IMG/VR virus record: IMGVR_UViG_3300009068_004973
Location: 1 to 23,195 of that record
DNA: 23,195 nt
Strand: one strand, 5' to 3'
Source of the DNA: a virus
The notes beneath the pieces are model-generated. The model did no database searches, was not told the origin of the DNA, and worked only from the letters and a program-made list of their open reading frames with translations. The position numbers and the translations under genes are program-made. Below are positions 1,014 through 3,638 of the stretch, piece after piece; positions within the stretch are counted from its first letter, which is position 1, and every line of letters begins with the position of its first letter.

Positions 1014-1406
1014 GGGCCTGCCTTGGATTTGACAGGCGAAGGTAGTCTCTTGAGACGCATGCAGGGTTAGATGGAAATCCTTAATCACCTATCACAACTC
1101 AAACGGCAACGTTTACAACTCCGAGGATATGATGAGTATCCCCACCTCAATCACTCGCGTGGCTGAGGAGGTAGAGCTAGCGATAGCAGCTTAACCACTG
1201 AGCGGCAACTGCTCAGGAAAAGAAAGTTGCACACTGAGTACACCCAACGGCTCATTAAATTCAGGAGGGAAGAACCCATTGGTTGTCGCGTTGACGATGG
1301 TGAAGAACCAACCGACTAGTTTGTCCGTTTAGAAAAATTGACTAAGCATGTGAATGAGTCCATTGGACATTCGAGCTGGACGAGGGTTCGACTCCCTCCA
1401 GGTCCA
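1014..1406 (+). ncRNA. ssrA: tmRNA (transfer-messenger RNA)
   Basis: Rescues stalled ribosomes by acting first as an alanyl-tRNA and then as a short mRNA that adds a degradation tag. The acceptor stem GGGCCTG (1014-1020) pairs over 7 bp with CAGGTCC (1399-1405), discriminator A1406. The T-arm is GAGGG-TTCGACT-CCCTC. The 5' side has the typical TGGATTTGACAGG block and GCATGC, and the 3' side has the hallmark GACTAAGCATGT. A tag frame runs from a likely resume codon near GGC 1105 to TAA 1192-1194 and ends EEVELAIAA, matching the Ala-Ala proteolysis tails of known tags. A pseudoknot follows: CTGAGC/GCTCAG with loop GCAACT pairing to AGTTGC. The CCA end is not encoded (ACA follows). The resume codon is an estimate; the RNA call is firm. 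Confidence 0.95.
1105..1194 (+). other. tmRNA tag reading frame, about 29 codons
   Basis: Frame GGC AAC GTT TAC ... GCA GCT TAA inside the tmRNA. It begins G-N-V-Y-N, resembling the start of ordinary tags, but carries a long extra central part before ending LAIAA and stop. The usual bacterial tag is about 8 to 15 residues, with longer exceptions. The first codon is inferred by position; the end and stop are clear. Confidence 0.75.
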
Positions 1407-1415
1407 CACCCAGAT

Positions 1416-1456: not shown

Positions 1457-2107
1457 ATGTACAAGATCAATCGGAAGTATCACTTCATATATAAAACCAC
1501 AAACTTACTTTCTGGACGATACTATATCGGAATGCATTCAACGGATAATCTAGATGATGGTTATCTAGGTTCTGGTAATAGATTAATTCAGGCAATTGCA
1601 AAGCATGGTAAAGAAAACTTCAAACGAGAAATTCTTGAATTTTGCTCATCCCGAGAAGAGTTAGCCCTAAGAGAATCCGAAATTGTCGATCTTGATGAGA
1701 TTGCAAAAAAGGATTGCATGAACTTAAAAGTCGGTGGAATCGGCGGAGGAAGAATTTGGAACGAAGAACATATGAAAGCCTTTTCAAAAGCCGGAAACGA
1801 AGCCTTTAGAAAAAAACTTAAAGACGACGGAGAATTCCGAGAAAAATTTTCATCATCGGTTAGTGAGTCTAATACAAATCTAAAAAGAGGATTCTTAAAG
1901 TCGCCGTTAGATTGGACCGGTAGATTACACTCAGAAGAAACAAAATCTAAAATGAAAGAATCTAAAAGCGGAACCGGTAAAGGGGATAAAAATTCTCAAT
2001 TTGGAACTTGTTGGATAACCAATGGTTCTGAAAATAAAAAGATAAAGAAAACAGATGACTTGCCAAAAGGTTGGTCATATGGTAGAAAGATAAAAATTGG
2101 AAAGTAA
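1457..2107 (+). CDS. GIY-YIG homing endonuclease (Seg-like)
   Basis: A free-standing homing endonuclease that would cut a specific DNA site and spread its own gene by repair. The GIY-YIG nuclease domain occupies about residues 8-95: IYKTTN, then YYIG at 22-25, a YLGSG motif near residue 37, and a conserved Glu in the ESEIV stretch near residue 72. The C-terminal half contains two NUMOD3-like DNA-binding repeats (WNEEHMKAFSKAG and SEETKSKMKESKSG) and a short basic tail, as in T4 Seg proteins. It has its own phage promoter and sits directly between the tmRNA and a tRNA-Ser. Its stop codon overlaps the first bases of the tRNA. Family assignment is confident; the cleavage site is unknown, but adjacency suggests the tmRNA-tRNA junction. 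Confidence 0.92.
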   Translation: MYKINRKYHFIYKTTNLLSGRYYIGMHSTDNLDDGYLGSGNRLIQAIAKHGKENFKREILEFCSSREELALRESEIVDLDEIAKKDCMNLKVGGIGGGRIWNEEHMKAFSKAGNEAFRKKLKDDGEFREKFSSSVSESNTNLKRGFLKSPLDWTGRLHSEETKSKMKESKSGTGKGDKNSQFGTCWITNGSENKKIKKTDDLPKGWSYGRKIKIGK

Positions 2108-2235: not shown

Positions 2236-2326
2236 GTTGGCTAAAGAATATATAAATTGATTTGGGGGATTAGCTCAGCTGGCTGAAAGATATATAAATT
2301 GATTCGGGGGTATAGCTCAGTTGGCT
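2236..2326. repeat. 42-bp tandem duplication of promoter plus tRNA 5' fragment
   Basis: Unit 1 (2236-2277) and unit 2 (2278-2319) each read GTTGGCT or GCTGGCT, then A/G-rich bases, TATATAAATTGATT, GGGGG and TAGCTCA. A third GTTGGCT (2320-2326) is the D-loop of the intact tRNA-Ala. Unit 1 therefore carries a truncated tRNA-Ala/Ile 5' end, and each tRNA start is preceded by TATATAAA, a possible promoter. Confidence 0.8.
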
Positions 2327-2602
2327 AGAGCATCTGCCTTGCACGCAGAGGGTCATGGGTTTTTTCGGACCCACTCATTAGCGATGATGAGTTAAAAATT
2401 GGGTGAATTGCTGGAACGCTAAGTCCTAACGGATATGCCAATCAGCAGCCAAGCCAGAAGTACACTTCTGGAAGGTTCAGAGACTACTGGAGAGGTTGAG
2501 CCCTCTTAATAACCAGTTCAAGCGCCCAACGTCTCACTGAGACGATGATATAGTCCAAACTAAATGGAAACATTTAGACTGCTGCGAATCCCTTTACCTC
2601 CA
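2306..2602 (+). tRNA. tRNA-Ala(UGC) interrupted by a group I intron in the T-loop
   Basis: The exons are 2306-2361 and 2585-2602. Acceptor GGGGGTA pairs with TACCTCC, anticodon stem TCTGC/GCAGA encloses CTTGCAC (anticodon TGC), and joining the exons gives the T-loop TTCGAAT with stem ATGGG/CCCTT (one T-T mismatch). Without removal of the intron the T-arm cannot form. A73 is followed by CA, so CCA is not fully encoded. An intrinsic terminator follows directly. Confidence 0.88.
2362..2584 (+). ncRNA. Group I self-splicing intron, 223 nt
   Basis: All four conserved core elements are visible: P-like AATTGCTGG (from 2406), Q-like AATCAGCAGCCAAGCC (2440-2455), R-like GGTTCAGAGACTA (2474-2486) and S-like GATGATATAGTCC (2544-2556). 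P7 forms between GACTA and TAGTC, and P3 between TTGGGTG (2399-2405) and CGCCCAA (2523-2529). P1 pairs exon GGGTT with GACCC (2368-2372), placing the required U-G wobble at the 5' splice site; the terminal G is 2584. A CTAAATG-gaaa-CATTTAG hairpin closes the 3' side. It carries no ORF, so it needs mobility functions from elsewhere or is immobile. Confidence 0.9.
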
Positions 2603-2603
2603 C

Positions 2604-2633
2604 AAAAAGCCAGACTATTCGGTCTGGCTTTTT
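2604..2633 (+). terminator. Intrinsic terminator after tRNA-Ala
   Basis: AAAAAGCCAGAC pairs with GTCTGGCTTTTT around a 6-nt loop. It ends the upstream RNA transcript and separates it from paaA. Confidence 0.9.
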
Positions 2634-2690: not shown

Positions 2691-3638
2691 ATGGCATCAG
2701 CAGGAATTTCCTCATTAGAGAGCGCATTTCAATCCAAGATTGACGGAGACATAAAGATCGAGCCAAGGGATTGGATGCCAGATGCATATCGAGAAGCACT
2801 AATTCGACAAATATCTCAACATGCGCACTCAGAAATTGTTGGCATGTTACCAGAAGGAAATTGGATAACTCGCGCGCCTAATTTGCGCAGGAAGGCTGTC
2901 CTCTTGGCAAAAGTGCAAGATGAGGCAGGACACGGCCTATATCTCTACAGCGCCGCAGAAACATTAGGTGTTGATCGTGAAGACCTAATCGATGATTTAC
3001 ACGAAGGCCTGGCAAAGTATTCCTCTATTTTCAACTACCCAACACTTTCATGGGCTGACATAGGAGCCATTGGCTGGTTGGTTGATGGTGCTGCTATTAT
3101 GAATCAGGTTCCACTGTGTCGCTGTTCATACGGACCTTATGCACGTGCAATGGTCAGGGTATGTAAAGAGGAGTCTTTTCATCAGCGGCAAGGATATGAA
3201 ATCATGATGAGTCTTGCAAACGGAACACCGGAACAAAAAGAGATGGCGCAAGATGCACTGAATCGTTTTTGGTGGCCAGCACTCATGATGTTTGGTCCGG
3301 ATGACGCAACTTCTACACACACGGAACAGTCCATGAAATGGAAAATTAAGCGAAACACCAATGACGAATTGAGACAGCAGTTTATTGATGCCACCGTTCC
3401 ACAAGCAGAGCTGTTAGGGCTCTCTATTCCTGATAAAAATTTAGCATGGAATAAAGAGACTGGACATTATGTTACAAGCCCTATTGATTGGAATGAGTTT
3501 TGGGAGGTGATTAAAGGCAATGGTCCATGTAACAAGGAGCGGGTAGCCGCTCGAAAGAAGGCAAAAGAGGATGGAAAATGGGTAAGAGACGCTGCTATGG
3601 CCCATGCAGCTAAAAGACAATCCAAAAAGTTGGATTAG
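2691..3638 (+). CDS. paaA: PaaA-like phenylacetyl-CoA 1,2-epoxidase alpha subunit
   Basis: In bacteria PaaA is the diiron catalytic subunit of the PaaABCE ring-1,2-phenylacetyl-CoA epoxidase of aerobic phenylacetate breakdown. The 315-residue protein is the usual length and matches the family over its whole extent as I remember it: [11 protein letters not shown] near residue 24, [20 protein letters not shown] (43-62), [20 protein letters not shown] (74-93), [17 protein letters not shown] near 110, and [10 protein letters not shown] (159-168). Candidate diiron ligands E48, E78/H81 and E161/H164 are intact. It stands alone between a terminator and a tRNA promoter, with no paaB, paaC or paaE in the window, so it would have to pair with host subunits or do something else. 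Family identification is strong; function in the phage is open. Confidence 0.95.

Follow-up and report, generated by a model that had tools for sequence, protein, structure and literature searches.

The locus described here raises the question of what kind of element interrupts a phage tRNA gene within its T-loop and by which route it could have come to lie there. The window, i.e., the whole 23,195-nt stretch of DNA that was analysed, is a 23-kb phage contig (an IMG/VR record) with T4-like genes (gp23, prohead protease), a tmRNA and five intact tRNAs. At positions 2306-2602 it holds a tRNA-Ala(UGC) gene split by a group I intron inside the T-loop. The features of this region are the following:

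1014-1409, plus strand: tmRNA gene without an intron; the T-arm, GAGGGUUCGACUCCC, is similar to the intron target.
1457-2107, plus strand: gene of a GIY-YIG (Seg-like) homing endonuclease, free-standing, between tmRNA and tRNA-Ala.
2306-2361, plus strand: 5' exon of tRNA-Ala(UGC), positions 1-55, ending in AUGGG-U54-U55 (ARAGORN, joined exons).
2362-2584, plus strand: group I intron of 223 nt, IA-type core with P7.1/P7.2, no ORF (cmscan, structure, covariation).
2585-2602, plus strand: 3' exon of tRNA-Ala, C56 to A73 (ARAGORN, joined exons).
2604-2633, plus strand: hairpin with a T-run directly 3' of tRNA-Ala, a probable terminator (AAAAAGCCAGAC..GTCTGGCTTTTT), read from the sequence.

After 2306-2361 was joined to 2585-2602, ARAGORN reported tRNA-Ala(tgc), in line with the T-loop site between U55 and C56 given by the original prediction; the unspliced DNA yielded no tRNA at this place, and cmscan returned a group I intron plus a partial tRNA match at 2306-2602. 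Since ARAGORN misses such split genes, the tRNA repertoires of phages are probably undercounted. The placement at U55|C56 follows from the intron ending in G2584, as no other cut gives back the 7-nt loop UUCGAAU; the insertion point is after U55, not in the anticodon loop. The joined tRNA carries G3.U70, and CCA is absent from the DNA, the 3' exon stopping at A73. The tmRNA of the window is uninterrupted, so that the host of the intron is tRNA-Ala and not tmRNA. A consensus scan did not pick up the hairpin at 2604-2633. Immediately upstream of tRNA-Ala lies a truncated tRNA 5' half (2264-2284, GGGGGATTAGCTCAGCTGGCT), and near-identical leaders precede this half (2244-2263) and tRNA-Ala (2286-2305), a partial duplication. 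Moreover, a degenerate tRNA-Ser(GCU)-like sequence, not called by ARAGORN, overlaps the end of the GIY-YIG gene at 2099-2190.

The Rfam scan that had been proposed as a check gave a match of RF00028 to 2353-2577 (model positions 1-253) with 92.3 bits against a gathering score of 50 and an E-value of 7.8e-23. Pairing in the window sequence extends to every helix from P1 to P9, the predicted P1, P3 and P7 as well as the IA-type P7.1/P7.2 among them, and P3 (2399-2403 with 2525-2529) forms a pseudoknot with P7. As foreseen, the intron is without an ORF, none of at least 60 aa being found inside it. Three short elements define the contacts with the exons and the core:

2364-2367, plus strand: UUCG, forming P10 with the 3' exon CGAA at 2585-2588 (pairing, 4 pairs).
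2368-2373, plus strand: internal guide sequence GACCCA, forming P1 with exon UGGGUU at 2356-2361, with U.G at the splice site (pairing).
2482-2486, plus strand: 5' strand of P7, GACUA, pairing with UAGUC at 2551-2555 (structure, covariation).

P1 of the window consists of six pairs, among them native U50 with A2373. The -1 base is U55, in a U.G pair with G2368, and the final intron base is G2584 (omega-G). Among 18 aligned T-loop introns, standard pairs occupied 90.3% of the pair cells compared to 32-48% in slid controls, a contrast partly expected from a structure derived from one aligned row, although the double changes are nonetheless many, with 40 pairs changed on both sides. The covariation score of the same set was 0.460 against 0.151 +/- 0.011 in shuffles, the covarying helices being P2, P3, P4, P6, P8 and P9, with P7 invariant. 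Across 26 distinct T-loop introns, each paired with the exons of its own gene, P1 had a mean of 5.0 bp and P10 of 3.3 bp, compared to 2.2 and 0.8 with shuffled exons, and none of the 500 shuffles reached the observed values.

Judged from this anatomy, the intron would be removed in the two guanosine-dependent steps usual for group I introns. The guide GACCCA would hold the 5' strand of the T-stem and loop, UGGGUU, as P1, and exoG would attack after U55, whereupon P10 (UUCG with CGAA) would align the 3' exon and ligation would restore the TTCGAAT loop. Because bases 50-53 are used by both P1 and the T-stem, folding of the T-arm and the maturation steps dependent on it would have to wait for splicing.

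The viral contigs were scanned for the tRNA-Ala body of the window with a free T-stem, which gave 23 intron-free genes. In five of them (L117, L118, L121, L122 and L123) the uninterrupted tRNA-Ala equals the joined exons of the window at every compared position. These contigs have other tRNA segments in common with the window, yet they are not its close relatives. The window flanks thus form one tRNA and an empty site exists; the original prediction had named intron-free relatives in which the flanks were never one tRNA as its refutation, and the outcome spoke in its favour. Close phage relatives recognized by the prohead protease did not cover the tRNA-Ala region, the best of them (L017) ending within the tRNA cluster. 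The T-T mismatch noticed in the ligated T-stem is real (U50.U64), but its interpretation as a possible trace of coconversion is ruled out, since the same mismatch occurs in 22 of the 23 intron-free phage genes, with T-stems AUGGG/CCCUU in 5 and GUGGG/CCCUC in 17, and is hence native to phage tRNA-Ala.

Further T-loop introns were sought in viral contigs by pattern scans for P7, J8/7 plus the 3' T-loop exon, and also from the 5' side, followed by ligation and ARAGORN. Introns were found at U54|U55 of tRNA-Ala(UGC) in three contigs (L033, L040 and L072), at U55|C56 of tRNA-Pro(UGG) in L071 and at U55|C56 of more than 20 viral tmRNA genes, one further tmRNA intron (L059) lying after U54 instead. 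ARAGORN called only part of the intron-bearing tmRNAs, the rest being recognized by a 3' sequence typical of tmRNA. In the numbering of the tmRNA survey cited below, U55|C56 is subsite 3 and U54|U55 is subsite 2. The same-site survey suggested at the outset extended the site to a second tRNA and to tmRNA; for a tRNA the site remained out of the ordinary, whereas among group I introns it has precedents, since tmRNA genes carry T-loop introns. A broad 5'-side pattern gave one true case (L033) among 17 matches and a second 5'-side pattern no true T-loop case; in bacterial genome contigs, one narrow pattern had 4 matches, none of them a T-loop intron of tRNA or tmRNA, which is a weak negative. The P1 of the tRNA-Pro intron has just 4 bp and its guide still reads GACCC, which would fit an intron that recently moved in from a GGGUU target. 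In the same record the next tRNA downstream contains a second group I intron, by eye an anticodon-loop insertion, so that both site classes stand side by side there.

Several other loci were noted. In the 735-kb phage LR756501 (L003, 1454-1685), a tmRNA-like T-arm carries a group I intron apparently ending in A rather than G, and the 3' ends in L053 and L061 are odd too. In contigs L151-L153, at about 2850-2930, a tRNA-Ala-like gene without an intron has an aberrant T-loop (GGATCGTAACC); the 250-aa ORF behind it is the one that also follows the intron-bearing tRNA-Ala genes. One viral contig (L049, about 2950-3180) has a tRNA-Asn-like gene whose anticodon loop is interrupted by a group I intron, as judged by eye.

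Overall, the insert is very probably an ORF-less IA-type intron at U55|C56 of a phage tRNA-Ala(UGC), predicted to remove itself, one of a T-arm-targeting set and probably exchanged between tmRNA and tRNA. A decayed intron in a dead tRNA gene, with splicing lost, is improbable. The U50.U64 mismatch could be taken as a sign of decay, as could the rearrangement of the tRNA region indicated by the truncated 5' half just upstream; however, the mismatch is native to phage tRNA-Ala, the exons are the same as in intact tRNAs that lack the intron, all core helices pair, and P1, P10, the U.G pair and omega-G are intact. Archaeal and eukaryotic tRNA introns spliced by proteins are described in the review literature, but an archaeal bulge-helix-bulge intron is hardly conceivable here, because the complete group I core with its covariation in the 223-nt insert already excludes it and the contig has T4-like phage genes such as gp23.

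That each T-loop intron arose independently, through reverse splicing of protein-gene introns, and that the guides are alike solely through the shared GGUUCRA target, is the more serious competitor, albeit rather unlikely. It would agree with the tree, built on about 165 nt of the core, in which protein-gene introns are intermixed with T-loop introns and few forks are supported. Against it, the window intron and the tmRNA intron of L041, at the same subsite, are 85.4% identical over 212 nt, almost the full length, compared to about 79% or less for the remaining T-loop introns, and the subsite-2 tRNA-Ala introns group together, with modest support (81/65). The L041 intron is also the nearest row to the window intron in the tree, which supports the kinship of the two; poorly resolved and with protein-gene introns mixed in, the tree supports neither a single T-loop lineage nor a direction of transfer. 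The 85% identity suggests an exchange between the T-arms of tmRNA and tRNA, and the window intron has probably moved between tmRNA and tRNA-Ala. It is very probably part of a phage intron set aimed at the conserved GGUUCRA of T-arms, in tmRNA and in a few tRNAs.

Phage introns without an ORF are known to spread with the aid of linked endonucleases. The GIY-YIG gene at 1457-2107 is a possible mobility partner of the window intron, and nearby free-standing homing endonucleases perhaps helped its movement between tmRNA and tRNA-Ala. Next to the three subsite-2 tRNA-Ala introns, a conserved ORF of 254-256 aa begins about 130 nt past the tRNA, its matches being phrog_23051 and, in part, a family of HNH endonucleases; the predicted structure of the 256-aa protein had a pLDDT of 49.8, a confidence too low for use. 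The broader proposal, of a T-arm-specific phage intron set that crosses between tmRNA and tRNA, with guides reading the shared GGUUCRA, the T-loop as a second tRNA intron site and free-standing endonucleases aiding the spread, has an even chance of being correct.

Bacterial tmRNA is known to carry group I introns in its TpsiC-loop, from a survey of 883 sequences at subsites 2, 3, 7 and 8, in which subsite 3 falls to Bacteroidia and subsite 2 nearly exclusively to Anaerolineae (PMC11915505). The phage introns share with them the loop (subsite 3 in the window, subsite 2 in the three other tRNA-Ala genes), the -1U and omega-G rule and, in most cases, the lack of an endonuclease gene. In contrast, the host gene in the window is a tRNA in a phage contig, and the passages of PMC11915505 drawn on here name no phage form. 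Among tRNA genes, group I introns are known from cyanobacterial tRNA-Leu and tRNA-fMet and from Azoarcus tRNA-Ile (PMC4033280, PMC8450103). The window intron resembles these in having a tRNA host and, by prediction, in self-splicing, but they lie in or near the anticodon loop, whereas its own site is the T-loop and the nearest relative found for it belongs to a tmRNA gene. The IA-type core is shared with introns of phage protein genes such as psbA (cyanophage S-PM2) and RNR (Pseudoalteromonas phage J2-1), the identity being 70-79% across part of the window intron, although the latter is inserted in a tRNA gene.

Searches of the open-access literature for a published group I intron in the T-loop, T-arm or TpsiC-loop of a tRNA returned tmRNA work only. 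By every sequence test the element is a group I intron, and its T-loop site appears to be new for tRNA, adding a second position to the tRNA group I introns. A review of 2014 stated that every phage intron then observed was in protein genes (PMC3984707); the present introns lie in phage tRNA and tmRNA genes, described there as intron-free. With one intron type shared by tmRNA and tRNA-Ala, the system would represent a natural case of host-gene change, the target being a sequence common to both.

Elsewhere in the window, the gene at 2691-3638 encodes a phage-borne PaaA, a subunit of phenylacetyl-CoA oxygenase; it scores 330 bits against Pfam PaaA_PaaC, matches no PHROG and is possibly an auxiliary metabolic gene. 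A SET-domain protein (13292-13963) adjoins the gp23 capsid gene, and a TROVE (Ro60-like) RNA-binding protein, phrog_850, is encoded at 19305-20912.
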